Assembly (NCBI RefSeq): GCF_019670105.1
Contig: NZ_AP023032.1
Coordinates: 4,100,001 to 4,164,000, forward strand
Source: Agarivorans albus
GTDB lineage: Bacteria > Pseudomonadota > Gammaproteobacteria > Enterobacterales > Celerinatantimonadaceae
DNA: 64,000 nucleotides
Direction of reading: 5' to 3'
The first letter of the stretch is position 1. Each line of letters opens with the position of its first letter. A program made the translations under genes and the position numbers. This document shows, piece after piece, positions 32,297 through 64,000 of the stretch. The notes under the pieces are model-generated. The model searched no databases, was not told the DNA's origin, and saw only the letters and a program-made list of their open reading frames with translations.

Positions 32297-32324
32297 AAAA
32301 AAGGCCGCCTAAGCGACCTTTTTT
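32297..32324 (-). terminator. Terminator of the terminal tuf gene (copy A)
   Basis: GGCCGC (32303-32308) pairs with GCGACC (32313-32318, one G-U type pair) with six A and six T flanks. The last base shared with copy B is at 32297. Confidence 0.9.
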
Positions 32325-32341
32325 CTGCTGTGCTACTCTTC

Positions 32342-33526
32342 TTATTCGAAGATTTTAGCTACAACACCCGCACCTACTGTACGGCCACCTTCACGGATTG
32401 CGAAGCGTAAACCTTCGTCCATCGCGATTGGGCAAATTAGCTCTACAACGAATTTCAAGTTGTCGCCTGGCATTACCATTTCTACGCCTTCTGGTAACTC
32501 TACAGAACCAGTTACGTCAGTTGTACGGAAGTAGAACTGTGGACGGTAGCCTTTGAAGAATGGCGTGTGACGGCCACCTTCGTCTTTGCTTAGTACGTAT
32601 ACTTCAGCTTCGAACTTGGTGTGTGGAGTAATTGAACCAGGTGCTGCCAATACTTGACCACGCTGTACTTCGTCACGCTTAGTACCACGCAGAAGAATAC
32701 CACAGTTCTCACCAGCGCGACCTTCGTCTAGAAGCTTGCGGAACATTTCTACACCAGTACAAGTTGTCTTAGTAGTCTCTTTAACACCTACGATTTCAAT
32801 TTCTTCTGAAACCTTGATGATACCGCGCTCTACACGACCTGTTACTACCGTACCACGACCTGAAATTGAGAATACATCTTCAATTGGTAGTAGGAATGGC
32901 TTGTCGATGTCACGCTCTGGCTCTGGGATGTAAGTATCTAGCGCTTCTGCTAGTTCTACAATTTTCGCTTCCCACGCTTCTTCGCCTTCTAGGGCTTTAA
33001 GCGCTGAACCTTGGATTACTGGAATGTCATCACCTGGGAATTCGTATTCAGATAGAAGTTCACGTACTTCCATTTCTACTAATTCTAGAAGCTCTTCGTC
33101 GTCTACCATGTCACATTTGTTCATGAATACGATGATGTAAGGTACACCAACCTGACGAGAAAGTAGGATGTGCTCACGTGTTTGTGGCATTGGGCCATCT
33201 GTAGAAGCTACTACTAGGATAGCGCCGTCCATCTGTGCTGCACCAGTGATCATGTTTTTAACGTAATCGGCGTGTCCAGGACAGTCTACGTGTGCGTAGT
33301 GACGAGTTGGAGTGTCGTACTCTACGTGTGAAGTAGAAATGGTGATACCGCGCTCGCGCTCTTCTGGAGCGTTATCGATTGCTGCGAAATCTTTAGCTTC
33401 ACCACCGTATACTTTTGCAAGTACGTTGGTAATAGCTGCTGTTAGAGTTGTTTTACCGTGGTCAACGTGGCCAATTGTACCAACGTTTACGTGCGGTTTT
33501 GAACGTTCAAATTTTTCTTTAGACAC
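32342..33526 (-). CDS. tuf: Elongation factor Tu (copy A, terminal; tufA-like)
   Basis: 394 residues from the GTG at 33526 (GAAGGT 7 nt upstream), giving [17 protein letters not shown] as in E. coli EF-Tu, which also begins with GTG. An in-frame ATG 21 nt earlier would add MEKKVHI; its codons contain the ribosome-binding site, so I reject it. GTPase motifs: [29 protein letters not shown]. It delivers aminoacyl-tRNA to the ribosome. It differs from the tuf at 50605 at 32450, 32690, 32717 and 32966, all third codon positions. It is the last gene of the str operon and has no S10 operon after it. Confidence 0.97.
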
Positions 33527-33592
33527 GATATGTACCTTCTTTTCCATTCCAATCTGCCTCACCCGAGACAGACCAATCATAGTTGAATTAGT

Positions 33593-35686
33593 TTACTTTG
33601 CTTCAACAATAGCATCAGCAACATTTTTCGGCGCTTCGTTGTACTCTAGGAATTCCATAGAGTAAGAGGCTCGCCCCTGAGTTGCCGAACGTAGATCTGT
33701 AGCATAGCCGAACATTGCAGACAGCGGCACTTTAGACTTAACAATCTTTAAGCCCGCAGCCCCATCGTCCATGCCTTCAATTATGCCACGACGACGATTC
33801 AAGTCACCCACTACATCCCCCATCCAATCTTCAGGGGTTGTAACTTCTACTTTCATCATCGGCTCGAGCAGTACTGGATCAGCGTCCAATGCACCTTTCT
33901 TAAAGCCCATTGCACCGGCAATTTTAAACGCCATTTCGTTAGAGTCAACATCGTGGAATGATCCATCGAATAAGGTGACCTTAACATCAAGTAGCGGATA
34001 GCCAGCCAATACACCCTGATCCATCTGCTCTTTACAGCCTTTATCAACAGCTGGGATGTATTCTTTTGGAACAACACCACCAACAATCTCGTTGACAAAT
34101 TCGTAACCAGCACCTGGCTCTAGAGGTTCCATACGCAACCAAACATGACCGTATTGACCACGACCACCCGATTGACGTACAAACTTTCCTTCCACTTCAA
34201 CTTGCTTGCGAATTGCTTCGCGATAAGCAACTTGAGGTTTACCTACATTACAATCAACGCTAAATTCGCGCTTCATGCGATCTACGATGATATCTAAGTG
34301 TAACTCACCCATACCAGAGATAAGGGTTTGTCCAGATTCTTCGTTAGTTTCTACGCGGAACGATGGATCCTCGGCAGCCAACTTACCTAAAGCTACGCCC
34401 ATTTTTTCTTGGTCAGCTTTGGTTCGAGGCTCTACGGCAATCTGAATTACCGGCTCAGGGAATTCCATACGCTCAAGAATCACTTTACGATTCATATCAC
34501 ATAAAGTGTCACCCGTGGTTACGTCTTTAAGACCAATCGCAGCGGCGATATCACCAGCACGAACTTCTTTGATCTCTTTACGATCATTTGAGTGCATTTG
34601 CACCATACGACCTAAACGTTCACGTTTTTGTTTAACCGAGTTATACACCGCAGTGCCGGTTTCAACCGTCCCCGAATAAACACGCATAAAGGTAAGTGTA
34701 CCCACAAATGGGTCGGTGGCAATTTTAAACGCAAGAGCCGCAAACGGCGCGTCGTCATCTGCCGGACAAGCAACTTCATTGTCCTTTTCGTCTGTACCTT
34801 TAATTGCTTCAACGTGGTTTGGAGCAGGCAAGTATTCTACAACCGCGTCAAGCACTGCTTGAACACCTTTGTTTTTAAATGCACTACCACAAGTCGCTAG
34901 CACGATCTCATTGTTTAGGGTGCGCTTACGCAAACCAAACTTAATCTCGGCTTCAGTCAACTCGCCTTCTTCAAGATATTTATCCATTAATTCATCGGTA
35001 GCTTCTGCAGCAGCTTCAACGAGTTCTTCGTGTAAAGCCTCTGCACGCTCTACCAAATGAGCAGGAATATCTTCGTAATTGAAGGTGGTACCTTGGTCTG
35101 CTTCGTTCCAGTTAATGGCCTTCATTTTGATCAGGTCAATAACACCAACAAATTCGTCCTCAGCGCCTATGTTCAACTGAATAGGTACACAGTTGGCACC
35201 TAAGCGATCACGGATTTGATCAATTACTCGTTCAAAGTCTGCACCAGCTCTATCCATTTTGTTCACGAATACCATTCGCGGAACAGAATATTTGTCAGCT
35301 TGGCGCCACACTGTTTCTGATTGAGGTTCAACACCAGATGAACCACAAAATACAACAACTGCACCATCTAATACACGCAATGAACGTTCAACTTCAATAG
35401 TAAAGTCAACGTGTCCAGGGGTATCGATGATATTAATACGGTGTTCGTCGTACTGGGCGTTCATACCACGCCAAAAGGTGGTAGTAGCCGCAGAGGTGAT
35501 GGTAATACCGCGTTCTTGTTCTTGCTCCATCCAGTCCATGGTGGCTGCGCCATCATGCACCTCACCTATTTTGTGAGATAGACCGGTGTAGAAAAGGACA
35601 CGTTCTGTAGTTGTTGTTTTGCCAGCGTCAACATGAGCAACAATACCAATGTTACGGTAGCGCTCAATTGGAGTTGTACGAGCCAT
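33593..35686 (-). CDS. fusA: Elongation factor G (copy A)
   Basis: 697 residues of ribosomal translocase. G-domain motifs: [47 protein letters not shown]; domain IV motif [11 protein letters not shown]. It catalyses tRNA-mRNA movement and ribosome recycling. It lies between rpsG and tuf, as in the classical str operon. Confidence 0.97.
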
Positions 35687-35762: not shown

Positions 35763-36233
35763 TTACCAGCGGTAATGTGCAAACGCTTTGTTTGCGTCGG
35801 CCATACGGTGAACGTCTTCACGTTTCTTAACCGCAGAACCTTTGTTTTCAGCTGCGTCTAGGATTTCACCCGCTAGACGTAAAGCCATAGATTTTTCACC
35901 ACGTTTACGTGCTGCATCTACCATCCAACGCATACCTAGAGTGTTACGACGTACTGGACGTACTTCAACAGGTACTTGGTAAGTAGAACCACCTACACGG
36001 CGAGATTTAACCTCTACCGATGGGCGCACGTTTTCAAGAGCAACTTCAAAAATTTCTTGGTGAGACTTGCCTGATTTATCAGCAGCAGCGTCTAATGCAC
36101 CATATACAATCTTTTCTGAAATTGATTTTTTACCATCAACCATTACTACGTTGATGAACTTAGCCAGTAGTTCTGATCCGAACTTAGGATCTGGCAAGAT
36201 TTTGCGTTGACCGATCACTCGACGTCTTGGCAT
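35763..36233 (-). CDS. rpsG: 30S ribosomal protein S7 (copy A)
   Basis: 156 residues, [25 protein letters not shown] start and the family's Arg/Lys-rich helices. It binds the 3' major domain of 16S rRNA. In E. coli S7 represses the str operon by binding the rpsL-rpsG spacer; here that spacer is 94 nt and contains the hairpin AACGG-CTCT-CCGTT next to the rpsL stop. Confidence 0.97.
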
Positions 36234-36327: not shown

Positions 36328-36720
<393 letters not shown>

Positions 36721-36845: not shown

Positions 36846-37121
36846 TTACCAAGTCATAGAGGGCGTGTGTTGTTCGGTTAACATTACCAAATCTTGGTAA
36901 TCGATCAGTACGCTATCGCAGACTTCAATACCCCGAGCCCTCACATCGGCACTTAACACAGAGACTCTAGCGCTTTGTGCAAGTACCGTTAAACGCGTGT
37001 CATCACGCAGCCATGAGTAAACAGCATCTTCGATGAGTACTAGATGCCCACCGTTTTCAAGCTGAGCAAGGCAGCGTTCGTAAGGGTCACTTGCATAAGG
37101 ATGTCGCATAATATGTAGCAT
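36846..37121 (-). CDS. tusB: tRNA 2-thiouridine sulfur-relay protein TusB (copy A)
   Basis: A 91-residue DsrH/TusB protein: MLHIMRHPYASDPYERCL start and LVLIEDAVYSW motif. It is the non-catalytic partner in the TusBCD complex that passes sulfur from TusA to TusE for s2U34 synthesis by MnmA in Glu, Gln and Lys tRNAs. One nucleotide from tusC. Confidence 0.88.
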   Translation of the reverse strand: MLHIMRHPYASDPYERCLAQLENGGHLVLIEDAVYSWLRDDTRLTVLAQSARVSVLSADVRARGIEVCDSVLIDYQDLVMLTEQHTPSMTW

Positions 37122-37122
37122 G

Positions 37123-37482
37123 CTAAAATCTCAATATTGCATGAGCATGACAGCATTCTGAATAGAACTGTTTTGCTTGTTTAACTCTAACGCTAATAGC
37201 AAGTTGTTCTAAAGAAAGGCCACGTTCTTTTAATGATTGTTGATCAACGTAGATCTCTTCAACGTCGTAAAGATCCAACAAACCATAGGTAGGAAGCACA
37301 TCTCGTTGCTTAATGTTAGTGGGGTTTTGCCCCTTCAATAACTGATAAACCCCATCGCCCTCAAAATAGGCGACAATATCTTCCGATACGGCAGAGGCAG
37401 CAAGTGCAGCATCCAGTGTTTCTCGTGCTAAAGAGTTGCCGTGTGGTGCGTGACTAAATACAAACACTAATGATTTGCTCAT
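37123..37482 (-). CDS. tusC: tRNA 2-thiouridine sulfur-relay protein TusC (copy A)
   Basis: 119 residues of the DsrF/TusC family: VFVFSHAPHGNSLARETLDAAL then DVLPTYGLLDLYDVEEIYVD. It is the structural subunit of TusBCD. It overlaps the tusD stop by 4 nt, so the three are translationally linked. Confidence 0.9.
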   Translation of the reverse strand: MSKSLVFVFSHAPHGNSLARETLDAALAASAVSEDIVAYFEGDGVYQLLKGQNPTNIKQRDVLPTYGLLDLYDVEEIYVDQQSLKERGLSLEQLAISVRVKQAKQFYSECCHAHAILRF

Positions 37483-37868
37483 AGATGCACCACTCTATCG
37501 CTACTTAACATCGCAGTAGCCATTTCGGCTAAACCAGACATATTAAACTCGTTGTGCATATTCGCCGGCAATTGATTTACTGCTGCTTCTTCCTGACCAA
37601 TAACTCCTCTGCGGTAGGCAGCTGCACTGCATACAAGAAGCGAACACGCAGATGCTTTTTTTATATCGAGCCAGTGCTGATGAATATTTACTTCATCACT
37701 TGCTGGTAGCGAAGTAGACAGGCCATTACTCACCCCATCTAGATAAAAGAATACCGTTTTTATCTGATGGCCAGCTTCAATCAAAGCATTGGCAAAGTTA
37801 AGCGCCGAAGCACTTCCCTGCTTGCCATACAAGGGGCTAGTAACAACCAGAGTATAGGTAAGGCTCAT
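37479..37868 (-). CDS. tusD: Sulfurtransferase TusD (copy A)
   Basis: 129 residues of the DsrE/TusD family. The persulfide-forming Cys is in LLVCSAAAYRRGV, which matches the catalytic Cys78 region of E. coli TusD; the N-terminal VVTSPLYGKQGSASALNFA is also typical. Three nucleotides after ridA. Confidence 0.92.
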   Translation of the reverse strand: MSLTYTLVVTSPLYGKQGSASALNFANALIEAGHQIKTVFFYLDGVSNGLSTSLPASDEVNIHQHWLDIKKASACSLLVCSAAAYRRGVIGQEEAAVNQLPANMHNEFNMSGLAEMATAMLSSDRVVHL

Positions 37869-37871
37869 AAA

Positions 37872-38255
37872 CTACTTAATATGCGCAATAGCTTCTACTT
37901 CTACCAACACATCTTTAGGTAAACGCGCTACTTCTACACATGAACGCGCAGGTGCACTTTCTGGGAAGTAACTCGCGTAAACATCATTAAAGGCAACAAA
38001 ATTAGCCATATCACTTAGAAAGCAGGTAGTTTTAAACACTGTTGAAGCATCTGCACCAGCAGCAGCTAATACCGCCATTAGATTCTCCATTACTTGTTTT
38101 GTTTGCTCGCTTATTCCTCCTTCCACGATCTCCATCGATTCAGGATCTAACGGGATTTGGCCTGAAGTAAAGACCAATTCGTCAATTTTAGTTGCTTGAG
38201 AATATGGGCCAATTGCAGCTGGAGCCGCTTCTGTCGATACAATTTGTTTGCTCAT
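37872..38255 (-). CDS. ridA: RidA family 2-iminobutanoate/2-iminopropanoate deaminase (copy A)
   Basis: 127 residues of the YjgF/YER057c/UK114 family: APAAIGPYSQATKIDELVFTSGQI and PARSCVEVARLPKDVLVEVEAIA with the catalytic Arg. It hydrolyses reactive enamine/imine intermediates from PLP enzymes. It lies between the rpoC terminator and tusD, a placement unlike E. coli (where ridA is near pyrBI), and forms one unit with tusDCB. Confidence 0.93.
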   Translation of the reverse strand: MSKQIVSTEAAPAAIGPYSQATKIDELVFTSGQIPLDPESMEIVEGGISEQTKQVMENLMAVLAAAGADASTVFKTTCFLSDMANFVAFNDVYASYFPESAPARSCVEVARLPKDVLVEVEAIAHIK

Positions 38256-38401: not shown

Positions 38402-41400
38402 CTACTCTGTTTCGCCACCAGGGGCTGCATTTAGTAGAGCTGCTAAGTTATCAGCTGCTTCATCTGCAGTAATTGGAGCTGGCGCTTCAGTTTGATTGCG
38501 ACGATTCTCGTGGTAGGCATAACCAGTACCAGCAGGAATCAAGCGACCAACAATAACGTTCTCTTTAAGACCGCGTAGTTCGTCCTGTTTTCCACCCACT
38601 GCTGCTTCGGTAAGCACGCGAGTAGTTTCTTGGAACGAAGCCGCAGAAATAAACGACTCTGTAGATAGTGACGCCTTAGTAATACCTAGTAACTCACGAC
38701 GGTATACCGCAGGACGTTTGCCTTCAGCTTCTAATTGACGATTCTCAATATTCACACGGGCAACTTCAGCTTGCTCACCTAGCAAGAAGCTAGAATCACC
38801 AGCATCTAGAATCAAACACTTACGAAGCATTTGACGCACGATAGTTTCAATGTGTTTATCGTTAATCTTCACACCTTGTAAACGGTATACGTCTTGTACT
38901 TCGTTTACGATGTAGTTAGAAACAGGGCTAATGCCACGTAAACGTAAAATGTCATGTGGTGATTCTGGACCATCGGCAATTACTTCACCTTTAGCAACTT
39001 TCTCACCTTCAAACACGTTTAGATTACGCCACTTAGGAATCATTTCTTCGTAAGCATCGCCTTCAGCAGGAGTAATCACCAAGCGGCGCTTACCTTTGGT
39101 TTCTTTACCGAAACTAATAGTACCGGTAATTTCTGCCAAAATAGCTGGCTCTTTAGGCTGACGAGCTTCGAACAAGTCGGCTACGCGAGGTAGACCACCG
39201 GTAATATCTTTAGTACCGCTTGATTCTTGTGGGATACGAGCAATTGCATCACCAACACCTACTTCAGCATTATCTTCTAAGTTTACAATCGCTTTTGCAG
39301 ACAAGAAGTACTGAGCTGGAATATCAGTACCGGCAATAAGTACGTCGTTACCAGAACCGTCAACCAATTTCACCATTGGACGCATTTCTTTACCAGCGCC
39401 AGGGCGCTCGTTAGGGTCCATAACGTGAATACTAGAAAGACCAGTTAGTTCATCAGTTTGACGGCTAACAGTTACGCCTTCAACCATGTCGATGAACTTA
39501 ACGCGACCCGGTACTTCAGTAATAATTGGGTGTGTATGTGGGTCCCAGTTAGCAACTGTGTCGCCAGAGGTAACCGCACCACCGTCTACTACTTCAAGTA
39601 TTGCACCGTATTGAAGCTTGTGGCTTTCTTTGGTTTGACCCATTTCATCAATAATGGTCAATTCAGTAGAACGAGAGGTTACAACTAACTTGCCTTCGCT
39701 GTTAGTTACTACTTTAGCGTTGTGTAGCTTAATAGTACCTGCGTTCTTAACTTGAATGCTGTTCTCTGCTGCCGCACGCGATGCCGCACCACCAATGTGG
39801 AAGGTACGCATGGTAAGCTGAGTACCTGGCTCACCAATTGATTGAGCTGCAACTACACCAACCGCTTCACCGCGACCAACCAAGTGGCCACGAGCTAGGT
39901 CACGACCATAACAAAGAGCACAAACACCAAAGTCGTTAGCACAGCTAATTACTGAGCGTACTTTAACGGTATCCACTGAGTTCTCTTCAAGAAGGTCACA
40001 CAGTTTCTCGTCAAGTAGTGTTTTGTCTTTAAGCAGTACTTCGTTCTCAGTACCAGGCTTAATTACATCGCCTACTAGAACACGACCAAGAACACGCTCA
40101 CGTAATGGCTCAACAACATCACCCCCCTCAATGTGAGGCGTCATGATAATACCGTCTTCGGTACCACAGTCAGTTTCGGTAACAACCAAATCCTGGGCAA
40201 CATCTACTAGACGACGTGTTAAGTAACCAGAGTTAGCAGTCTTCAATGCGGTATCGGCCAAACCTTTACGCGCACCGTGGGTTGAGATGAAGTACTGAAG
40301 TACGTTCAAACCTTCACGGAAGTTAGCCACAATCGGCGTTTCGATAATCGAACCATCCGGTTTAGCCATCAAGCCACGCATACCAGCTAGCTGACGAATC
40401 TGTGCAGCACTACCACGTGCGCCAGAGTCGGCCATCATAAAGATGCTGTTGAATGAGTCTTGACTCTCTTCTTCGCCATCTTTGTTGATAACTGTTTCAG
40501 TAGACAAGTTGTCCATCATCGCTTTCGATACTTTTTCGTTAGCCGAAGCCCAAATATCGATTACTTTGTTGTAACGCTCGCCTGCGGTTACCAAACCAGC
40601 TAGGAACTGCTCTTGAATTTCGCTTACTTCGTCACTGGCTTCTTCCACGATGTCTTTCTTAGCATCAGGGATAACCATGTCGTTAATACCTACAGAGGCA
40701 CCAGACAAGGTTGCGTAATGGAAACCGGTGTACATTAATTGGTCAGCAAAAATAACTGAGTGCTTAAGACCTAGTTTACGGTAACAGGTGTTTAGCAATC
40801 CTGAGATTTGCTTCTTACCCATTGACTGGTTAACTAAATCAAATGGCAAACCTTTAGGTACAATTAACCATAAAATGGCACGACCAATGGTAGTTTGCTT
40901 AATCTCAGTTTTTTCGATTTTAGAGCCGTCTTCAGCTACAACAACCTCAGTAATACGTACGTTTACACGTGCGTGAATACTGGCTTGTTTAGCGCGGTAT
41001 AACTTCTCAGCCTCTTTAGGGCCAGAAAGGTACATACCTTCACCTTCAGCGTTAACACGTTCACGAGTCATGTAGTACAGACCCAATACAACGTCTTGCG
41101 AAGGAACGATAATAGGCTCACCGTTAGCTGGTGATAGTACGTTGTTGGTCGACATCATCAACGAACGTGCTTCTAACTGTGCTTCTAAGGTCAACGGTAC
41201 GTGTACCGCCATTTGGTCACCATCGAAGTCGGCGTTATAAGCCGCACACACTAGCGGGTGTAATTGAATTGCTTTACCTTCAATTAGCACAGGCTCAAAG
41301 GCTTGAATACCCAAACGGTGCAAGGTTGGTGCACGGTTAAGTAATACTGGGTGTTCGCGGATAACTTCTTCAAGAATATCCCACACTTCACCGCCTTCGC

Positions 41401-42607
41401 GCTCAACCATTTTCTTAGCAGCTTTAATTGTAGTCGCAAGACCACGCAGCTCTAGCTTGCCATAGATGAATGGTTTGAATAGCTCAAGTGCCATTTTCTT
41501 AGGAAGACCACACTGGTGTAGACGCAGTGTTGGACCAACGGTAATTACCGAACGACCTGAGTAATCTACACGCTTACCTAGCAAGTTCTGACGGAAACGA
41601 CCTTGCTTACCTTTGATCATATCGGCCAAAGATTTAAGCGGACGCTTGTTAGAACCAGTAATAGCACGACCACGACGACCATTGTCTAACAAGGCATCAA
41701 CTGCTTCTTGCAGCATACGCTTTTCGTTACGCACAATAATGTCTGGAGCAGCTAGGTCTAATAGACGCTTCAAACGGTTGTTACGGTTGATTACACGACG
41801 GTATAAATCGTTCAAATCAGACGTAGCAAAACGGCCGCCATCTAGTGGTACTAGTGGGCGCAAATCTGGTGGAAGAACCGGTAATACGGTCATAATCATC
41901 CACTCAGGTTTGTTACCTGAATCGCGGAACGCTTCCATAAGCTTAAGACGCTTAGTGGTCTTCTTACGCTTAGTTTCAGAGTTAGTAGTTTGTAACTCTT
42001 CGCGCATTACTTCGATTTCTTGGTCAAGCTCTAAATGACGCAATAAAGCTAATACAGCTTCAGCGCCCATTTTAGCTTCAAACTCGTCACCGTACTCTTC
42101 AAGTGAATCCAAGTAAGTTTCTTCGGTAAGCATTTGACCGCGCTCTAAGCTGGTCATGCCAGGCTCAGTCACAACAAATGATTCGAAGTAAAGCACTCGT
42201 TCAATATCACGTAAAGTCATATCTAGTAATAAACCAATACGCGATGGTAATGATTTTAAGAACCAGATGTGCGCTACAGGAGAAGCTAATTCGATATGAC
42301 CCATTCGATCACGACGAACTTTAGATTGGGTAACTTCTACGCCACACTTCTCACAAATAACACCACGGTGTTTCAAACGTTTGTATTTACCACACAAACA
42401 TTCGTAATCTTTTACTGGGCCAAAAATACGGGCACAGAATAAACCGTCACGCTCAGGCTTAAAAGTACGATAGTTAATCGTCTCTGGTTTCTTCACCTCA
42501 CCAAACGACCAACTGCGGATCTGGTCTGGTGAAGCTAGGCCAATTTTAATGCCTTCAAACTCTTCGGTCTTGCTTTGTTGCTTAAGAAACTTAAGTAAAT
42601 CTTTCAC
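38402..42607 (-). CDS. rpoC: RNA polymerase beta' subunit (copy A)
   Basis: 1401 residues (E. coli 1407). The N-terminal zinc site [19 protein letters not shown], the catalytic [10 protein letters not shown] loop with its three Asp Mg ligands, the bridge helix/trigger-loop region, and the second Cys cluster ([13 protein letters not shown]) are intact. It forms the catalytic centre with RpoB. Follows rpoB after 82 nt. Confidence 0.97.
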
Positions 42608-47315: not shown

Positions 47316-47369
47316 GACTCAAATTCCTAAATTCAATTAAATTTATAAAATAATGTAGCAACAAGCAAA

Positions 47370-49911: not shown

Positions 49912-50288
49912 TAGATACCTACCCCTGTTACAAAGGCAACTAGGCGAACCAATATCGCATCTAGGCCCCACAAAATTAGTGACATGAATGCAGTAGCAGC
50001 TAATACAATCATGGTAGTTTGAATGGCTTCTTGACGAGTAGGCCAGATAACCTTACGCACTTCCATACGCGACTCTTTAGCAAATTCGAAGGCTTGCTTG
50101 CCTTTATTGGTTTGCGATGCAATGCCTAAAGCAGCAATCACGGCAATCACAACACCGATTACACGCACCAAGATCGACATATCTGTATATAGGTAGTTAC
50201 CTACAACAGCGGCGATTAAAATTAGAGCAGCTAATGCCCATTTTAGGCCATCTAACGACCCACTTTGGTTTTCAGTACTGGTACTCAT
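49911..50288 (-). CDS. secE: Preprotein translocase subunit SecE
   Basis: 125 residues from the ATG at 50288; the longer in-frame reading runs into the tRNA gene. Three hydrophobic helices (about 17-33, 39-57, 94-118) as in the E. coli three-helix form, with the conserved cytoplasmic helix [20 protein letters not shown]. It clamps SecY in the inner membrane. Confidence 0.95.
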
Positions 50289-50342
50289 CAAACAACCTAC
50301 AAATAATCCCACAAAATCATAAATCCCTTCATATAGGGATAG

Positions 50343-50418
50343 TGGCAGGGGTGGAGAGATTCGAACTCCCAACATTCGGATTTGGAATCCGACGTTCTGC
50401 CATTGGAACTACACCCCT
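50343..50418 (-). tRNA. trpT: tRNA-Trp (anticodon CCA)
   Basis: 76 nt on the minus strand, 5' AGGGGTG ... CACCCCT GCCA 3', with the CCA end encoded. The anticodon arm is TCGGA-TTCCAAA-TCCGA with anticodon CCA. The T-arm is GGGAG-TTCGAAT-CTCTCC-like. It lies 54 nt upstream of secE and is probably processed from the same transcript. Confidence 0.97.
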
Positions 50419-50559: not shown

Positions 50560-50587
50560 AAAAAAGGCCGCCTAAGCGACCTTTTTT
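50560..50587 (-). terminator. Terminator of the junction tuf gene (copy B)
   Basis: The same hairpin as after the terminal tuf. Identity with copy A ends at base 50560; beyond it the sequences are unrelated (tRNA-Trp promoter side here, lipoprotein side in copy A). Confidence 0.9.
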
Positions 50588-50604
50588 CTGCTGTGCTACT
50601 CTTC

Positions 50605-51789: not shown

Positions 51790-51855
51790 GATATGTACCT
51801 TCTTTTCCATTCCAATCTGCCTCACCCGAGACAGACCAATCATAGTTGAATTAGT

Positions 51856-53949
51856 TTACTTTGCTTCAACAATAGCATCAGCAACATTTTTCGGCGCTTC
51901 GTTGTACTCTAGGAATTCCATAGAGTAAGAGGCTCGCCCCTGAGTTGCCGAACGTAGATCTGTAGCATAGCCGAACATTGCAGACAGCGGCACTTTAGAC
52001 TTAACAATCTTTAAGCCCGCAGCCCCATCGTCCATGCCTTCAATTATGCCACGACGACGATTCAAGTCACCCACTACATCCCCCATCCAATCTTCAGGGG
52101 TTGTAACTTCTACTTTCATCATCGGCTCGAGCAGTACTGGATCAGCGTCCAATGCACCTTTCTTAAAGCCCATTGCACCGGCAATTTTAAACGCCATTTC
52201 GTTAGAGTCAACATCGTGGAATGATCCATCGAATAAGGTGACCTTAACATCAAGTAGCGGATAGCCAGCCAATACACCCTGATCCATCTGCTCTTTACAG
52301 CCTTTATCAACAGCTGGGATGTATTCTTTTGGAACAACACCACCAACAATCTCGTTGACAAATTCGTAACCAGCACCTGGCTCTAGAGGTTCCATACGCA
52401 ACCAAACATGACCGTATTGACCACGACCACCCGATTGACGTACAAACTTTCCTTCCACTTCAACTTGCTTGCGAATTGCTTCGCGATAAGCAACTTGAGG
52501 TTTACCTACATTACAATCAACGCTAAATTCGCGCTTCATGCGATCTACGATGATATCTAAGTGTAACTCACCCATACCAGAGATAAGGGTTTGTCCAGAT
52601 TCTTCGTTAGTTTCTACGCGGAACGATGGATCCTCGGCAGCCAACTTACCTAAAGCTACGCCCATTTTTTCTTGGTCAGCTTTGGTTCGAGGCTCTACGG
52701 CAATCTGAATTACCGGCTCAGGGAATTCCATACGCTCAAGAATCACTTTACGATTCATATCACATAAAGTGTCACCCGTGGTTACGTCTTTAAGACCAAT
52801 CGCAGCGGCGATATCACCAGCACGAACTTCTTTGATCTCTTTACGATCATTTGAGTGCATTTGCACCATACGACCTAAACGTTCACGTTTTTGTTTAACC
52901 GAGTTATACACCGCAGTGCCGGTTTCAACCGTCCCCGAATAAACACGCATAAAGGTAAGTGTACCCACAAATGGGTCGGTGGCAATTTTAAACGCAAGAG
53001 CCGCAAACGGCGCGTCGTCATCTGCCGGACAAGCAACTTCATTGTCCTTTTCGTCTGTACCTTTAATTGCTTCAACGTGGTTTGGAGCAGGCAAGTATTC
53101 TACAACCGCGTCAAGCACTGCTTGAACACCTTTGTTTTTAAATGCACTACCACAAGTCGCTAGCACGATCTCATTGTTTAGGGTGCGCTTACGCAAACCA
53201 AACTTAATCTCGGCTTCAGTCAACTCGCCTTCTTCAAGATATTTATCCATTAATTCATCGGTAGCTTCTGCAGCAGCTTCAACGAGTTCTTCGTGTAAAG
53301 CCTCTGCACGCTCTACCAAATGAGCAGGAATATCTTCGTAATTGAAGGTGGTACCTTGGTCTGCTTCGTTCCAGTTAATGGCCTTCATTTTGATCAGGTC
53401 AATAACACCAACAAATTCGTCCTCAGCGCCTATGTTCAACTGAATAGGTACACAGTTGGCACCTAAGCGATCACGGATTTGATCAATTACTCGTTCAAAG
53501 TCTGCACCAGCTCTATCCATTTTGTTCACGAATACCATTCGCGGAACAGAATATTTGTCAGCTTGGCGCCACACTGTTTCTGATTGAGGTTCAACACCAG
53601 ATGAACCACAAAATACAACAACTGCACCATCTAATACACGCAATGAACGTTCAACTTCAATAGTAAAGTCAACGTGTCCAGGGGTATCGATGATATTAAT
53701 ACGGTGTTCGTCGTACTGGGCGTTCATACCACGCCAAAAGGTGGTAGTAGCCGCAGAGGTGATGGTAATACCGCGTTCTTGTTCTTGCTCCATCCAGTCC
53801 ATGGTGGCTGCGCCATCATGCACCTCACCTATTTTGTGAGATAGACCGGTGTAGAAAAGGACACGTTCTGTAGTTGTTGTTTTGCCAGCGTCAACATGAG
53901 CAACAATACCAATGTTACGGTAGCGCTCAATTGGAGTTGTACGAGCCAT
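51856..53949 (-). CDS. fusA: Elongation factor G (copy B)
   Basis: Same 697-residue protein as at 33593. Its downstream neighbour is the junction tuf and its upstream neighbour is rpsG copy B. No inactivating change is seen, so both EF-G genes should be expressed from their own str promoters. Confidence 0.97.
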
Positions 53950-53996
53950 TGTTATCCTCTTGCTAAGGAGTAATCCTTAGTCTCACATAGAAAGTA

Positions 53997-54019
53997 GCGC
54001 AGCTGCTAAGCAGCTGCGC
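53997..54019. repeat. Palindrome between rpsG and fusA (copy B)
   Basis: Exact copy of the 23-nt palindrome at 35734, conserved in sequence and position. Confidence 0.8.
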
Positions 54020-54025
54020 AACCAA

Positions 54026-54496
54026 TTACCAGCGGTAATGTGCAAACGCTTTGTTTGCGTCGGCCATACGGTGAACGTCTTCACGTTTCTTAACCGCAGA
54101 ACCTTTGTTTTCAGCTGCGTCTAGGATTTCACCCGCTAGACGTAAAGCCATAGATTTTTCACCACGTTTACGTGCTGCATCTACCATCCAACGCATACCT
54201 AGAGTGTTACGACGTACTGGACGTACTTCAACAGGTACTTGGTAAGTAGAACCACCTACACGGCGAGATTTAACCTCTACCGATGGGCGCACGTTTTCAA
54301 GAGCAACTTCAAAAATTTCTTGGTGAGACTTGCCTGATTTATCAGCAGCAGCGTCTAATGCACCATATACAATCTTTTCTGAAATTGATTTTTTACCATC
54401 AACCATTACTACGTTGATGAACTTAGCCAGTAGTTCTGATCCGAACTTAGGATCTGGCAAGATTTTGCGTTGACCGATCACTCGACGTCTTGGCAT
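54026..54496 (-). CDS. rpsG: 30S ribosomal protein S7 (copy B)
   Basis: Identical 156-residue product to 35763-36233; the 94-nt rpsL-rpsG spacer with the putative S7 site is also unchanged, so feedback control would act on both copies. Confidence 0.97.
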
Positions 54497-54590
54497 TTTA
54501 ATATCTCCGGTTTGCTTCAGGTTTCCCCAAAACGAATTTTAAAAAAATTTCGCTATAACTAAATGTTTGGCCTTACTTAACGGAGAGCCG

Positions 54591-54983
<393 letters not shown>

Positions 54984-55000
54984 TTACATTTAAACATGTG

Positions 55001-55024
55001 AAAAAATCTACCCCAATTTTGGGG
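55001..55024 (-). terminator. Attenuator-like hairpin in the rpsL leader (copy B)
   Basis: Exact copy of the CCCCAATTTTGGGG hairpin plus U tract at 36738-36761. Confidence 0.55.
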
Positions 55025-55031
55025 AGGCGAA

Positions 55032-55060
55032 ATTTTATGCGCTTGCAGGTAAAGAGTCAA
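55032..55060 (-). promoter_or_regulatory. Sigma-70 promoter of the str operon (copy B)
   Basis: TTGACT-17-TAAAAT repeated unchanged from 36769-36797, so this copy can drive rpsL-rpsG-fusA-tuf independently. Confidence 0.75.
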
Positions 55061-55108
55061 GGCTTGCAATGATCACAAGCTTGATATTTTTGATGAATGG
55101 GAGCTGAG

Positions 55109-55384
55109 TTACCAAGTCATAGAGGGCGTGTGTTGTTCGGTTAACATTACCAAATCTTGGTAATCGATCAGTACGCTATCGCAGACTTCAATACCCCGAG
55201 CCCTCACATCGGCACTTAACACAGAGACTCTAGCGCTTTGTGCAAGTACCGTTAAACGCGTGTCATCACGCAGCCATGAGTAAACAGCATCTTCGATGAG
55301 TACTAGATGCCCACCGTTTTCAAGCTGAGCAAGGCAGCGTTCGTAAGGGTCACTTGCATAAGGATGTCGCATAATATGTAGCAT
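55109..55384 (-). CDS. tusB: TusB (copy B)
   Basis: Identical 91-residue product to 36846-37121, one nucleotide after tusC as in copy A. Confidence 0.88.
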   Translation of the reverse strand: MLHIMRHPYASDPYERCLAQLENGGHLVLIEDAVYSWLRDDTRLTVLAQSARVSVLSADVRARGIEVCDSVLIDYQDLVMLTEQHTPSMTW

Positions 55385-55385
55385 G

Positions 55386-55745
55386 CTAAAATCTCAATAT
55401 TGCATGAGCATGACAGCATTCTGAATAGAACTGTTTTGCTTGTTTAACTCTAACGCTAATAGCAAGTTGTTCTAAAGAAAGGCCACGTTCTTTTAATGAT
55501 TGTTGATCAACGTAGATCTCTTCAACGTCGTAAAGATCCAACAAACCATAGGTAGGAAGCACATCTCGTTGCTTAATGTTAGTGGGGTTTTGCCCCTTCA
55601 ATAACTGATAAACCCCATCGCCCTCAAAATAGGCGACAATATCTTCCGATACGGCAGAGGCAGCAAGTGCAGCATCCAGTGTTTCTCGTGCTAAAGAGTT
55701 GCCGTGTGGTGCGTGACTAAATACAAACACTAATGATTTGCTCAT
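55386..55745 (-). CDS. tusC: TusC (copy B)
   Basis: Identical 119-residue product to 37123-37482; the 4-nt overlap with tusD is kept. Confidence 0.9.
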   Translation of the reverse strand: MSKSLVFVFSHAPHGNSLARETLDAALAASAVSEDIVAYFEGDGVYQLLKGQNPTNIKQRDVLPTYGLLDLYDVEEIYVDQQSLKERGLSLEQLAISVRVKQAKQFYSECCHAHAILRF

Positions 55746-56131
55746 AGATGCACCACTCTATCGCTACTTAACATCGCAGTAGCCATTTCGGCTAAACCAG
55801 ACATATTAAACTCGTTGTGCATATTCGCCGGCAATTGATTTACTGCTGCTTCTTCCTGACCAATAACTCCTCTGCGGTAGGCAGCTGCACTGCATACAAG
55901 AAGCGAACACGCAGATGCTTTTTTTATATCGAGCCAGTGCTGATGAATATTTACTTCATCACTTGCTGGTAGCGAAGTAGACAGGCCATTACTCACCCCA
56001 TCTAGATAAAAGAATACCGTTTTTATCTGATGGCCAGCTTCAATCAAAGCATTGGCAAAGTTAAGCGCCGAAGCACTTCCCTGCTTGCCATACAAGGGGC
56101 TAGTAACAACCAGAGTATAGGTAAGGCTCAT
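55742..56131 (-). CDS. tusD: TusD (copy B)
   Basis: Identical 129-residue product to 37479-37868 with the CSAAAYRRGV persulfide site intact. Confidence 0.92.
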   Translation of the reverse strand: MSLTYTLVVTSPLYGKQGSASALNFANALIEAGHQIKTVFFYLDGVSNGLSTSLPASDEVNIHQHWLDIKKASACSLLVCSAAAYRRGVIGQEEAAVNQLPANMHNEFNMSGLAEMATAMLSSDRVVHL

Positions 56132-56134
56132 AAA

Positions 56135-56518
56135 CTACTTAATATGCGCAATAGCTTCTACTTCTACCAACACATCTTTAGGTAAACGCGCTACTTCTAC
56201 ACATGAACGCGCAGGTGCACTTTCTGGGAAGTAACTCGCGTAAACATCATTAAAGGCAACAAAATTAGCCATATCACTTAGAAAGCAGGTAGTTTTAAAC
56301 ACTGTTGAAGCATCTGCACCAGCAGCAGCTAATACCGCCATTAGATTCTCCATTACTTGTTTTGTTTGCTCGCTTATTCCTCCTTCCACGATCTCCATCG
56401 ATTCAGGATCTAACGGGATTTGGCCTGAAGTAAAGACCAATTCGTCAATTTTAGTTGCTTGAGAATATGGGCCAATTGCAGCTGGAGCCGCTTCTGTCGA
56501 TACAATTTGTTTGCTCAT
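56135..56518 (-). CDS. ridA: RidA family deaminase (copy B)
   Basis: Identical 127-residue product to 37872-38255; the upstream TTGACA element and the rpoC terminator are repeated too. Confidence 0.93.
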   Translation of the reverse strand: MSKQIVSTEAAPAAIGPYSQATKIDELVFTSGQIPLDPESMEIVEGGISEQTKQVMENLMAVLAAAGADASTVFKTTCFLSDMANFVAFNDVYASYFPESAPARSCVEVARLPKDVLVEVEAIAHIK

Positions 56519-56552
56519 AAAATGCTCTGGATTTTGTTGTTTTTAAAAATGG

Positions 56553-56581
56553 AGTCTGTGACGAACGCTAACACTTGTCAA
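56553..56581 (-). promoter_or_regulatory. Putative promoter of ridA-tusDCB (copy B)
   Basis: Unchanged copy of the TTGACA-17-CAGACT element at 38290-38318; the weak -10 makes the call tentative. Confidence 0.4.
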
Positions 56582-56616
56582 ATATTTTGCAGAGGGATAG
56601 TTAAAGCGAAGACATT

Positions 56617-56645
56617 AAAAAAGGCAGCCAATGGCTGCCTTTTTT
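56617..56645 (-). terminator. Terminator after rpoC (copy B)
   Basis: Exact copy of the GGCAGCC/GGCTGCC terminator at 38354-38382. Confidence 0.92.
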
Positions 56646-56664
56646 ATCTTAGTAGAGTCAGCTA

Positions 56665-59600
56665 CTACTCTGTTTCGCCACCAGGGGCTGCATTTAGTAG
56701 AGCTGCTAAGTTATCAGCTGCTTCATCTGCAGTAATTGGAGCTGGCGCTTCAGTTTGATTGCGACGATTCTCGTGGTAGGCATAACCAGTACCAGCAGGA
56801 ATCAAGCGACCAACAATAACGTTCTCTTTAAGACCGCGTAGTTCGTCCTGTTTTCCACCCACTGCTGCTTCGGTAAGCACGCGAGTAGTTTCTTGGAACG
56901 AAGCCGCAGAAATAAACGACTCTGTAGATAGTGACGCCTTAGTAATACCTAGTAACTCACGACGGTATACCGCAGGACGTTTGCCTTCAGCTTCTAATTG
57001 ACGATTCTCAATATTCACACGGGCAACTTCAGCTTGCTCACCTAGCAAGAAGCTAGAATCACCAGCATCTAGAATCAAACACTTACGAAGCATTTGACGC
57101 ACGATAGTTTCAATGTGTTTATCGTTAATCTTCACACCTTGTAAACGGTATACGTCTTGTACTTCGTTTACGATGTAGTTAGAAACAGGGCTAATGCCAC
57201 GTAAACGTAAAATGTCATGTGGTGATTCTGGACCATCGGCAATTACTTCACCTTTAGCAACTTTCTCACCTTCAAACACGTTTAGATTACGCCACTTAGG
57301 AATCATTTCTTCGTAAGCATCGCCTTCAGCAGGAGTAATCACCAAGCGGCGCTTACCTTTGGTTTCTTTACCGAAACTAATAGTACCGGTAATTTCTGCC
57401 AAAATAGCTGGCTCTTTAGGCTGACGAGCTTCGAACAAGTCGGCTACGCGAGGTAGACCACCGGTAATATCTTTAGTACCGCTTGATTCTTGTGGGATAC
57501 GAGCAATTGCATCACCAACACCTACTTCAGCATTATCTTCTAAGTTTACAATCGCTTTTGCAGACAAGAAGTACTGAGCTGGAATATCAGTACCGGCAAT
57601 AAGTACGTCGTTACCAGAACCGTCAACCAATTTCACCATTGGACGCATTTCTTTACCAGCGCCAGGGCGCTCGTTAGGGTCCATAACGTGAATACTAGAA
57701 AGACCAGTTAGTTCATCAGTTTGACGGCTAACAGTTACGCCTTCAACCATGTCGATGAACTTAACGCGACCCGGTACTTCAGTAATAATTGGGTGTGTAT
57801 GTGGGTCCCAGTTAGCAACTGTGTCGCCAGAGGTAACCGCACCACCGTCTACTACTTCAAGTATTGCACCGTATTGAAGCTTGTGGCTTTCTTTGGTTTG
57901 ACCCATTTCATCAATAATGGTCAATTCAGTAGAACGAGAGGTTACAACTAACTTGCCTTCGCTGTTAGTTACTACTTTAGCGTTGTGTAGCTTAATAGTA
58001 CCTGCGTTCTTAACTTGAATGCTGTTCTCTGCTGCCGCACGCGATGCCGCACCACCAATGTGGAAGGTACGCATGGTAAGCTGAGTACCTGGCTCACCAA
58101 TTGATTGAGCTGCAACTACACCAACCGCTTCACCGCGACCAACCAAGTGGCCACGAGCTAGGTCACGACCATAACAAAGAGCACAAACACCAAAGTCGTT
58201 AGCACAGCTAATTACTGAGCGTACTTTAACGGTATCCACTGAGTTCTCTTCAAGAAGGTCACACAGTTTCTCGTCAAGTAGTGTTTTGTCTTTAAGCAGT
58301 ACTTCGTTCTCAGTACCAGGCTTAATTACATCGCCTACTAGAACACGACCAAGAACACGCTCACGTAATGGCTCAACAACATCACCCCCCTCAATGTGAG
58401 GCGTCATGATAATACCGTCTTCGGTACCACAGTCAGTTTCGGTAACAACCAAATCCTGGGCAACATCTACTAGACGACGTGTTAAGTAACCAGAGTTAGC
58501 AGTCTTCAATGCGGTATCGGCCAAACCTTTACGCGCACCGTGGGTTGAGATGAAGTACTGAAGTACGTTCAAACCTTCACGGAAGTTAGCCACAATCGGC
58601 GTTTCGATAATCGAACCATCCGGTTTAGCCATCAAGCCACGCATACCAGCTAGCTGACGAATCTGTGCAGCACTACCACGTGCGCCAGAGTCGGCCATCA
58701 TAAAGATGCTGTTGAATGAGTCTTGACTCTCTTCTTCGCCATCTTTGTTGATAACTGTTTCAGTAGACAAGTTGTCCATCATCGCTTTCGATACTTTTTC
58801 GTTAGCCGAAGCCCAAATATCGATTACTTTGTTGTAACGCTCGCCTGCGGTTACCAAACCAGCTAGGAACTGCTCTTGAATTTCGCTTACTTCGTCACTG
58901 GCTTCTTCCACGATGTCTTTCTTAGCATCAGGGATAACCATGTCGTTAATACCTACAGAGGCACCAGACAAGGTTGCGTAATGGAAACCGGTGTACATTA
59001 ATTGGTCAGCAAAAATAACTGAGTGCTTAAGACCTAGTTTACGGTAACAGGTGTTTAGCAATCCTGAGATTTGCTTCTTACCCATTGACTGGTTAACTAA
59101 ATCAAATGGCAAACCTTTAGGTACAATTAACCATAAAATGGCACGACCAATGGTAGTTTGCTTAATCTCAGTTTTTTCGATTTTAGAGCCGTCTTCAGCT
59201 ACAACAACCTCAGTAATACGTACGTTTACACGTGCGTGAATACTGGCTTGTTTAGCGCGGTATAACTTCTCAGCCTCTTTAGGGCCAGAAAGGTACATAC
59301 CTTCACCTTCAGCGTTAACACGTTCACGAGTCATGTAGTACAGACCCAATACAACGTCTTGCGAAGGAACGATAATAGGCTCACCGTTAGCTGGTGATAG
59401 TACGTTGTTGGTCGACATCATCAACGAACGTGCTTCTAACTGTGCTTCTAAGGTCAACGGTACGTGTACCGCCATTTGGTCACCATCGAAGTCGGCGTTA
59501 TAAGCCGCACACACTAGCGGGTGTAATTGAATTGCTTTACCTTCAATTAGCACAGGCTCAAAGGCTTGAATACCCAAACGGTGCAAGGTTGGTGCACGGT

Positions 59601-60870
59601 TAAGTAATACTGGGTGTTCGCGGATAACTTCTTCAAGAATATCCCACACTTCACCGCCTTCGCGCTCAACCATTTTCTTAGCAGCTTTAATTGTAGTCGC
59701 AAGACCACGCAGCTCTAGCTTGCCATAGATGAATGGTTTGAATAGCTCAAGTGCCATTTTCTTAGGAAGACCACACTGGTGTAGACGCAGTGTTGGACCA
59801 ACGGTAATTACCGAACGACCTGAGTAATCTACACGCTTACCTAGCAAGTTCTGACGGAAACGACCTTGCTTACCTTTGATCATATCGGCCAAAGATTTAA
59901 GCGGACGCTTGTTAGAACCAGTAATAGCACGACCACGACGACCATTGTCTAACAAGGCATCAACTGCTTCTTGCAGCATACGCTTTTCGTTACGCACAAT
60001 AATGTCTGGAGCAGCTAGGTCTAATAGACGCTTCAAACGGTTGTTACGGTTGATTACACGACGGTATAAATCGTTCAAATCAGACGTAGCAAAACGGCCG
60101 CCATCTAGTGGTACTAGTGGGCGCAAATCTGGTGGAAGAACCGGTAATACGGTCATAATCATCCACTCAGGTTTGTTACCTGAATCGCGGAACGCTTCCA
60201 TAAGCTTAAGACGCTTAGTGGTCTTCTTACGCTTAGTTTCAGAGTTAGTAGTTTGTAACTCTTCGCGCATTACTTCGATTTCTTGGTCAAGCTCTAAATG
60301 ACGCAATAAAGCTAATACAGCTTCAGCGCCCATTTTAGCTTCAAACTCGTCACCGTACTCTTCAAGTGAATCCAAGTAAGTTTCTTCGGTAAGCATTTGA
60401 CCGCGCTCTAAGCTGGTCATGCCAGGCTCAGTCACAACAAATGATTCGAAGTAAAGCACTCGTTCAATATCACGTAAAGTCATATCTAGTAATAAACCAA
60501 TACGCGATGGTAATGATTTTAAGAACCAGATGTGCGCTACAGGAGAAGCTAATTCGATATGACCCATTCGATCACGACGAACTTTAGATTGGGTAACTTC
60601 TACGCCACACTTCTCACAAATAACACCACGGTGTTTCAAACGTTTGTATTTACCACACAAACATTCGTAATCTTTTACTGGGCCAAAAATACGGGCACAG
60701 AATAAACCGTCACGCTCAGGCTTAAAAGTACGATAGTTAATCGTCTCTGGTTTCTTCACCTCACCAAACGACCAACTGCGGATCTGGTCTGGTGAAGCTA
60801 GGCCAATTTTAATGCCTTCAAACTCTTCGGTCTTGCTTTGTTGCTTAAGAAACTTAAGTAAATCTTTCAC
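56665..60870 (-). CDS. rpoC: RNA polymerase beta' subunit (copy B)
   Basis: The 1401-residue translation is identical to 38402-42607, and frames read on the other strand across the gene also match, which argues for identical DNA. No frameshift or stop: this is an intact second rpoC, not a decaying copy. Confidence 0.97.
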
Positions 60871-60878
60871 GTTTCTCT

Positions 60879-60920
60879 CCAGGTTGGAGTTAAACCTGGG
60901 GCGTTTCTAATGAAACGCCC
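60879..60920. repeat. rpoB-rpoC spacer hairpins (copy B)
   Basis: Same two hairpins as at 42616-42657. Confidence 0.75.
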
Positions 60921-60952
60921 GCCTTGCTTTTAATTCAGGTGAAGTCCTGTGC

Positions 60953-63900
60953 TTACAGCTCATCCAACTCAATGTTGATACCAAGAGAGCGAATCTCTTT
61001 GAGCAACACGTTGAACGACTCAGGCATTCCTGGCTCCATCTGGTGGTTACCATCAACGATGTTCTTGTACATCTTAGTACGACCGTTAACGTCATCAGAT
61101 TTAACCGTTAGCATTTCCTGTAGGGTGTAAGCAGCACCGTATGCTTCTAGTGCCCATACTTCCATCTCACCGAAGCGCTGACCACCAAACTGTGCTTTAC
61201 CACCTAGAGGTTGCTGAGTAACCAAGCTGTAAGAACCAGTAGAACGAGCGTGCATCTTGTCATCAACCAAGTGGTTAAGTTTCAACATGTACATGTAACC
61301 AACAGTTACAGGGCGCTCAAATTCTTGACCGGTACGGCCGTCACGTAACACGATTTGACCTGAATCAGGTAAGTCGGCTAAACGTAATAGCTCTTTAATT
61401 TCAGCTTCTTTAGCACCATCAAATGCAGGGGTAGCCATTGGCACACCGCCACGTAAGTTCTTGGCTAAAGTCATTACTTCTTCATCAGTGAAGCTAGCAA
61501 CGTCAACTTTAAGCGCGTCATCACCTACGTTGTACACTTTCTGGATGAAGTCACGCAGTTTATCCATTTCGATTTCACGCTGAACTTTCAGCATTTCATC
61601 AATTTTTTCACCAACACCTTTAGCTGCTAGGCCTAAGTGGGTTTCAAGGATCTGACCGATGTTCATCCGCGATGGTACACCTAGTGGGTTCAAGCAGATG
61701 TCTACTGGGCGACCAGTTTCGTCATAAGGCATATCTTCACGAGGAACAATGGTAGAAATTACACCTTTGTTACCGTGACGACCAGCCATCTTGTCACCAG
61801 GTTGAATACGACGCTTAACTGCTAAGTAAACTTTAACAATCTTCAGTACGCCAGGCGCTAAGTCATCACCTTGGGTGATCTTACGGCGCTTAATGTCGAA
61901 CTGCTTGTCGAATTCAGCTTTGATTTCGTCGTATTGCGCAGCAATTTGTTCTAGCTGCGTTTGCGCGTCTTCATCGCTTAATGCCGCTTCTAGCCACTCT
62001 GCTGGTTGCTGGCGGTCTAAGTCAGCTTCTGACTTACCGGCTGCAATCAATACAGATTTAGCACGAGCAAAGATACCGTCTTCAAGGATCTTGAATTCTT
62101 CGGTTAAATCTTTTTTCGCTTCTTTAAGCTGCATAGACTCAATTTCTTGAGCACGCTTGTCTTTTTCTACGCCATCGCGAGTAAAGACTTGAACGTCGAT
62201 TACGGTACCAAATACAGAGTTAGGTACACGTAGTGATGTATCTTTAACATCAGACGCTTTCTCACCGAAGATGGCACGCAATAGCTTCTCTTCAGGTGTT
62301 AATTGTGTTTCACCTTTAGGGGTTACTTTACCCACTAAGATGTCACCTGGCTTAACTTCAGCACCAACGTAAACAATACCTGACTCATCAAGTTTGCTTA
62401 GCGCTGATTCACCAACGTTTGGAATATCGGCTGAGATTTCTTCACTGCCAAGCTTAGTATCACGAGCGATACAGCTTAACTCTTGAATGTGAATAGTAGT
62501 AAAGCGATCTTCTTTAACTACGTTCTCAGAAATACCGATTGAATCCTCAAAGTTGTAACCATTCCAAGGCATGAACGCTACGCGCATGTTTTGACCCAAT
62601 GCCAACTCACCTAAGTCAGTTGAAGGACCATCTGCTAGTACGTCGCCTTTAGCTACCAATTCGCCTGATTTAACTACCGGACGTTGGTTGATACAGGTGT
62701 TTTGGTTAGAACGGGTGTACTTTGTTAGCGTGTAAATGTCGATACCTGCCTCACCAGGAAGCATCTCGTCTTCATTTACTTTAACTACGATGCGGCTAGC
62801 ATCTGCGTAGTCAACCGTACCGCCACGTTTCGATACAACAGTTACACCAGAGTCAACCGCTACAGCACGTTCAATACCAGTACCTACCAACGGCTTATCA
62901 GCACGCAGTGTTGGTACAGCTTGACGTTGCATGTTAGAACCCATCAATGCACGGTTTGCATCATCGTGTTCTAGGAACGGAATCAACGATGCCGCCACAG
63001 AAATAATCTGCTGAGGACTTACGTCCATGTACTGAATTTGGTCAGTAGGCATGTAGGTTGATTCACCCTTGTGGCGACAAGGTACTAAATCTGTTTCAAG
63101 TAATTTACCATTTGCGTCGGCTTCAGCGTTTGCCTGAGCGATCACATAAGTGCCTTCATCAATCGCTGATAAGTAATCTACTTCATCAGTGATTTGGCCT
63201 TCAATTACTTTGCGGTAAGGGGTTTCTAAGAAACCAAACTCATTAGTGCGAGAGTAAACCGCCAACGAGTTAATCAAACCAATGTTTGGACCTTCCGGCG
63301 TTTCAATCGGACATAAACGACCGTAGTGCGTTGGGTGTACATCTCGCACTTCAAAGCCAGCACGTTCACGAGTTAAACCACCTGGGCCTAATGCAGAAAC
63401 ACGACGTTTGTGTGTTACTTCAGAAAGCGGGTTGTTTTGATCCATGAACTGAGACAATTGGCTTGAACCAAAGAACTCTTTAACCGCAGCCGAGATTGGC
63501 TTAGCGTTAATTAAGTCTTGTGGCATCAATGCATCAAGGTCACCTAAGCTTAGGCGCTCTTTAACAGCACGCTCTACACGTACTAGACCAACGCGGAATT
63601 GGTTTTCAGCCATTTCGCCTACGCTACGAATACGACGGTTACCAAGGTGGTCGATATCATCAACTTCACCACGGCCGTTACGAATTTCGATTAGCGTTTG
63701 CATAACCTTAACGATGTCTTCTTTATCAAGTACACCAGCCACTGAACCGTCTTCACGGCCAACACGGCTGTTGAACTTCATACGGCCTACTGTTGACAAG
63801 TCGTAACGGTCGCCGTTAAAGAACAAGTTCTCGAACAAGGCTTCTGCTGCGTCTTTTGTTGGTGGCTCACCAGGACGCATCATACGGTAGATTTCAACTA

Positions 63901-64000
63901 ACGCCTCTAGGCGGTTTGTTGAAGAATCAACACGCAAGGTATCAGAGATAAATGAACCATGATCTAAGTCATTGGTATAAATCGTTTTTATCACCGAGTG
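60953..64000 (-). CDS. rpoB: RNA polymerase beta subunit (copy B, 5' part beyond the window)
   Basis: Codons 330-1344 are present; base 64000 is the first base of codon 330. The visible product is identical to copy A, including the wild-type rifampicin pocket. The missing start lies about 1 kb past the window end. If the duplication is complete, rplL, rplJ, rplA, rplK, nusG, secE, trpT and an outer tuf should follow beyond it. Confidence 0.96.

Follow-up and report, generated by a model that had tools for sequence, protein, structure and literature searches.

A probable recent tandem duplication of the secE-rpoBC-str block between tuf genes of Agarivorans albus

Results

The assembled genome of Agarivorans albus (G000; one contig of 4,792,255 bp) contains two identical, directly adjoining copies of a 17,034-bp block that runs from fusA to trpT and includes rpoB, rpoC, rpsL and rpsG, with a tuf gene at either end and a third one at the junction. 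This is probably a real, very recent and unstable tandem duplication carried by some or all cells of the sequenced culture, and it probably arose by one unequal crossover between directly repeated tuf genes. The window, i.e., the whole stretch of 64,000 nucleotides that was analyzed, corresponds to genome positions 4100001 to 4164000, and the structure is described here, in window or genome coordinates, as it stands in the assembled sequence.

Extent and gene content of the repeat

When the window is compared with itself (BLAST), positions 32292-45737 match positions 50555-64000 over 13,446 bp, ungapped and with 5 mismatches. The initial annotation had described a same-strand duplication at an offset of +18,263 without indels, with a visible overlap of 13.4 kb limited by the end of the window, and both statements are borne out: the self-match is stopped by the window end alone, and when extended past position 64,000 it grows to 19,497 bp with 6 mismatches and 0 gaps and reaches a third tuf gene. 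A base-by-base count at the +18,263 offset over the 19,492 positions 32297-51788 gives 5 differences (32450, 32690, 32717, 32966, and 51469), every one of them within tuf. Below about 32.3 kb, identity at this offset drops to the background level. A match of this length is not a chance event. Across the whole genome, three tuf genes are separated by two stretches of 17,034 bp, with a period of 18,263 bp, and the third tuf (genome 4168823-4170051) lies at an offset of 2 x 18,263 from the first. Homologous direct repeats, namely three 1,230-bp tuf copies at a constant spacing of 18,263 bp, are thus found at both unit ends and at the junction, which agrees with the earlier proposal that tuf forms the boundary and that the period equals the tuf-tuf spacing. 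Between the two 17,034-bp blocks, spacers included, there are 0 differences, giving a 95% upper bound near 0.00018 per site.

All features of the repeat lie on the minus strand. Read 5' to 3' on that strand, and beginning outside the window, we observe birA, tRNA genes for Thr, Tyr, Gly and Thr, and tuf, followed by a block in the order trpT, secE, nusG, rplK, rplA, rplJ, rplL, rpoB, rpoC, ridA, tusD, tusC, tusB, rpsL, rpsG, fusA; then come tuf, the complete trpT-to-fusA block once more, tuf, and an unduplicated gene for a lipoprotein-like protein. The unit had been predicted from its visible part as tuf-trpT-...-fusA-tuf, and the rest of rpoB, rplL, rplJ, rplA, rplK, nusG, secE, trpT and tuf are indeed present beyond the window.

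From the low-coordinate side, the outer flank is an unduplicated open reading frame (ORF) for a 282-aa protein with a lipoprotein-like N terminus (31248..32096), for which no Pfam match was found. Directly after this gene, an 8-base unit is perfectly repeated 10.5 times in tandem (31155-31238), an array found only in the present genome among the loci compared. The fusA-side tuf repeat ("tufC," encoding EF-Tu; 32297..33526) has a GTG start and, after the stop codon, a terminator-like hairpin with a T run. It is followed by copy 1 of fusA (EF-G; 33593..35686), a 697-aa ORF that is identical in copy 2, and of rpsG (S7; 35763..36233; Pfam Ribosomal_S7), rpsL (S12; 36328..36702; Pfam Ribosom_S12_S23), tusB, tusC and tusD (36846..37868; Pfam DsrH, DsrE and DsrE), and a ridA-like gene (37872..38255; Pfam Ribonuc_L-PSP, RidA family), so that the initial gene names hold where they were tested by family. 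The remaining names, e.g., fusA, rpoB, rpoC and the rpl genes, are those we presume from the translations. Copy 1 continues with rpoC (38402..42607; a 1,401-aa ORF, identical in copy 2), rpoB (42690..46724; a 1,344-aa ORF, of which the genome has two full copies), rplL, rplJ, rplA and rplK (46950..49241; ORFs identical in copy 2), nusG and secE (49366..50375; assigned from ORFs and translations, with mechanical ORF ends and the true starts inside), and trpT (tRNA-Trp, anticodon CCA; 50343..50418; ARAGORN and Rfam RF00005). The middle tuf (50560..51789) is followed by the second block, which within the window reaches from fusA to part of rpoB (51789..64000) and extends to genome position 4168822, 4,822 bp beyond the window end, where the third tuf comes next; the second trpT is at genome 4168606-4168681. 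In each copy of the block, the interval between rplL and rpoB contains a sequence that matches the Rfam family of the Pseudomonas sRNA P26 (window 46887-46943; L010:5150-5206). For fusA there is also a paralogue-like DNA match elsewhere in the genome, at 1.89 Mb.

Across fusA to rplK, 13 protein genes were checked, and each has an open reading frame of the same sequence in both copies. No inactivating or divergent change marks one of the copies, as would be looked for in a SNAP intermediate, where selection retains a duplication before genes are lost asymmetrically (PMC7055797; 0 differences in 17,034 bp are seen here), and there are no two divergent rpoB forms of the kind known as actinomycete-type paralogues, the two rpoB copies being identical. 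An interpretation as divergent paralogues was rejected on the same identity.

With respect to the other translation operons, rplN has one match in the genome, and rpoA and the remaining ribosomal operons appear to occur once. After rpsQ, the last gene of the S10 operon, comes a wzc-like gene (L010:13689-16319; genome 4173689-4176319); the spc operon, from rplN on, is about 1 Mb away on the other side of the origin (L125:2969-8433; genome 434969-440433), downstream of a partly masked stretch with 16S rRNA sequence at its start. The congener G001 shows the same split arrangement of S10 and spc. The G+C content of 44.2% agrees with the values of 44.2% (PMC3715662) and 44.3% (PMC10927687) reported for Agarivorans.

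A hybrid tuf at the junction

The tuf repeat of 1,230 bp extends from the start codon through the terminator-like hairpin after the stop codon. The fusA-side copy has 4 differences from the middle copy and 6 from the far copy, and the six positions that distinguish the fusA-side from the tRNA-side type are the start codon (GTG versus ATG) and coding sequence (CDS) positions 321, 561, 810, 837, and 1077. At its GTG start and CDS 321 the middle tuf is of the fusA-side type, and at CDS 561, 810, 837, and 1077 it is of the tRNA-side type; the junction repeat is thus a hybrid of the outer repeats, with the two types in the order that a model of unequal recombination requires. The start codon marks the side in relatives as well (fusA-side GTG and tRNA-side ATG in 7/7 relatives compared with both copies). 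From residue 2 onward, the EF-Tu proteins of all three copies are identical. Judging from these markers, the crossover would have taken place between CDS 321 and 561, an interval of 240 bp. The hybrid by itself is modest evidence, since 7 out of 64 equally likely patterns of six markers would fit the crossover model. It was also rejected as proof against an assembly artefact, as a loop in the assembly graph yields the same pattern.

Within genomes, the tuf copies differ little (CDS differences, start codon excluded: 5 in G000, 2 in G001, 9 in G002, 0 in G003, 1 in G005, 4 in G006, 8 in G007, and 1 in G008), whereas the tRNA-side tuf of the present genome shows 42 to 81 differences from those of five congeners. 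This comparison points to recombination of tuf copies within genomes of the family, that is, to concerted evolution, by which the homology for an unequal crossover would be maintained. Concerted evolution of tuf is described across many orders in the account of PMC6053082, and tuf recombination in Salmonella is the subject of an experimental study (PMC5485169).

Relatives carry a single block

We searched 397 genomes of the order (≥95% complete) with the C-terminal 245 residues of RpoB and observed two matches in the present genome only, one match in 391 genomes, and none in 5. About 79 of these genomes are single-contig assemblies (this number and the match counts are taken from the per-genome rows); in drafts, one rpoB match is weak evidence of one copy, since exact tandem copies would be merged in an assembly of short reads. 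In a set of 99 genomes that includes the present one, two full rpoB matches are again confined to the present genome, with one match in 90 genomes, two adjoining pieces of a single gene in six (G013, G038, G039, G078, G091, and G095), and no match at threshold in two (G014 and G044). In G013, G038, G078, and G095, both RpoB pieces lie in one open frame of about 1,490 to 1,510 aa, as if it bore an insertion.

All six other genomes of the genus, three of them single-contig assemblies (G001, G002, and G006), have one rpoB. A search for tuf in 12 genomes of the family gave three matches in the present genome, two in nine genomes (in G011 both are partial and at contig ends), and one in G004 and G009. 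Five of the six congeners carry tuf-rpoB-tuf on one contig, i.e., the single-unit arrangement expected of the ancestral state, and the sixth (G004) has one tuf match only. With rpoB in between, the tuf genes are spaced by 18,263 bp in G001, 18,250 bp in G002, 18,257 bp in both G003 and G005, and 18,307 bp in G006; in two genomes of a sister genus the spacing is 23,973 bp (G008) and 19,632 bp (G010). The block itself is 95.2% identical to that of G001 (822 mismatches in 17,031 aligned positions; the 56 gap columns come partly from slightly different slice boundaries of G001). A duplication inherited throughout the genus was rejected, as it is not seen in 6/6 congeners.

Discussion

The initial annotation had left the origin of the repeat among four options, namely a very recent event, active homogenization, selection in culture, and an assembly error. 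The data narrow them to two readings, a very recent unequal crossover between tuf genes and an assembly loop with tuf at its ends. They do not support a second set of genes that has been stable for long, which the annotation had considered very unusual: the copies do not differ from each other, and two rpoB genes occur in no other genome searched.

For the unequal exchange, the state before the event would have been tRNAs-tufA-[trpT-secE-nusG-rplKAJL-rpoBC-ridA-tusDCB-rpsLG-fusA]-tufC. Two sister copies would have aligned out of register, so that tufA of one paired with tufC of the other, and a single homologous (RecA-type) crossover between the directly repeated tuf genes, in the CDS 321-561 interval, would give as one product two blocks with a hybrid tuf between them. 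The outcome would be a double dose of the block and an increase from two to three tuf genes. Unless selection retains the extra copy, the 18 kb of homology should then lead to its frequent loss or to further amplification. Several observations are in line with this scheme: both ends of the duplication are at tuf, its period equals the tuf-tuf spacing of G001 (18,263 bp), the blocks have 0 differences from each other versus 822 mismatches to G001, and six congeners have one rpoB. The frequency of such events elsewhere also favors a real duplication, with duplications of 8 to 355 kb detected by read depth in 2 to 4% of isolates in each of four species and rates from >1e-2 to 1e-5 given for duplication by recombination between repeats, as stated in PMC7055797.

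The main competing explanation, which we regard as possible and clearly the less likely of the two, is that the tuf copies were collapsed into shared graph nodes and the loop between them was walked twice, the cell having one block and two tuf genes. The exact identity over 17,034 bp and the one-switch hybrid tuf are just what a double pass would give, so that zero differences are equally expected of an artefact, and a duplication this unstable should often disappear on culture. Breaks at tuf are seen in other assemblies (contigs of the drafts G009 and G011 end inside tuf, and the two tuf genes of G007 are on different contigs), and 391 of the 397 genomes of the order have one rpoB match. Against this, the genome is a single 4.79-Mb contig, which would be hard to obtain without reads longer than the rRNA operons (16S matches are found in at least four places, two of them partial); these operons are longer than tuf, and reads that cross them would also span a 1.2-kb tuf with its unique flanks. 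The number of rRNA operons was set aside as a gauge of assembly quality: rRNA stretches are masked in part (N runs in L125 and L127), which leaves the 16S counts incomplete, with no 16S match in three congeners whose genomes are complete or nearly so. Untrimmed joining of overlapping contig ends before rotation to dnaA is a far poorer candidate, and we rejected it. The record begins at dnaA and has therefore been rotated, and 18 kb is the size of a long-read terminal overlap; however, such an overlap would begin and end anywhere, whereas here both ends are at tuf and the period is the tuf-tuf distance of G001. An older duplication, retained in the lineage through selection on gene dosage and homogenized by recombination, is improbable too and adds little to the overall case for a real duplication, be it fixed or in part of the culture. 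Homogenization works in principle here, given the concerted evolution of the tuf copies, and large duplications can be retained by selection according to PMC7055797, but there are 0 differences in 17,034 bp including spacers, and the duplication is seen in 0/6 congeners, a count weakened by the draft congeners, in which an exact tandem copy could be collapsed by the assembler. Overall, a real and very recent duplication is the reading that we favor.

The mechanism as such, tandem duplication by recombination between direct repeats, is already known. Classical duplications between rrn or IS repeats (Anderson and Roth; as treated in PMC7055797) are like the present one in having long repeats at the ends and in the middle, tens of kilobases between repeats, a hybrid junction repeat, and expected instability; they differ in that here the repeat is tuf and the block is the secE-rpoBC-str cluster. 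In Salmonella, near-identical tufA and tufB likewise recombine and give hybrid tuf sequences, but as PMC5485169 reports them they are 762 kb apart and inverse, leading to conversion or inversion, whereas the direct orientation and the 18-kb distance found here make duplication and deletion possible. For the operon cluster itself, a study of 204 genomes describes segmental duplications of parts, among them an additional alpha operon in Psychromonas ingrahamii, and suggests that the gene order changes through duplication and subsequent asymmetric loss (PMC8046335). The Psychromonas case, as presented there, involves another segment (rpmJ to rplQ) in a different location, in contrast to the identical tandem copies of secE-rpoBC-str observed here; the present case, if real, would be a stage preceding any gene loss. 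Nonomuraea and similar actinomycetes also have two rpoB genes per genome, but in the description of PMC5431353 these differ from each other, whereas the copies here are identical and imply no new function. No paper on the present duplication was found among the open-access papers searched.

The doubled genes encode the RNA polymerase beta and beta' subunits, S12, S7, EF-G, L11, L1, L10, L7/L12, SecE, NusG, RidA, TusBCD, and tRNA-Trp. No mixed-allele advantage is implied, since the two copies carry no different alleles, and feedback by L1, L10, and S7, as in Escherichia coli, may soften the effect of the doubling. If the repeat were an artefact, closed genomes with directly repeated tuf genes may show a false second rpoB, rpsL, and fusA; these genes serve as single-copy markers, and the case would then be a warning for surveys of copy number. 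If the duplication is real, as we consider probable, it offers a snapshot of a fresh duplication in the most conserved bacterial operon cluster, with its junction resolved to 240 bp, and the strain would allow the effect of a double dose of rpoBC and str to be measured. It would also mean that paired tuf genes, held near-identical by recombination, predispose the intervening block to duplication and deletion. A more speculative thought, to which we give little credence, is that the duplication is real and favored in this strain, and that the tuf genes bordering secE-rpoBC-str serve cells of this genus as a built-in switch for doubling or further amplifying the RNA polymerase and str genes in a single step, reversed as conditions change. 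Were this so, the arrangement in Agarivorans albus would represent the first stage, before gene loss, of the duplication-based reshaping that has been proposed for the same operon cluster.
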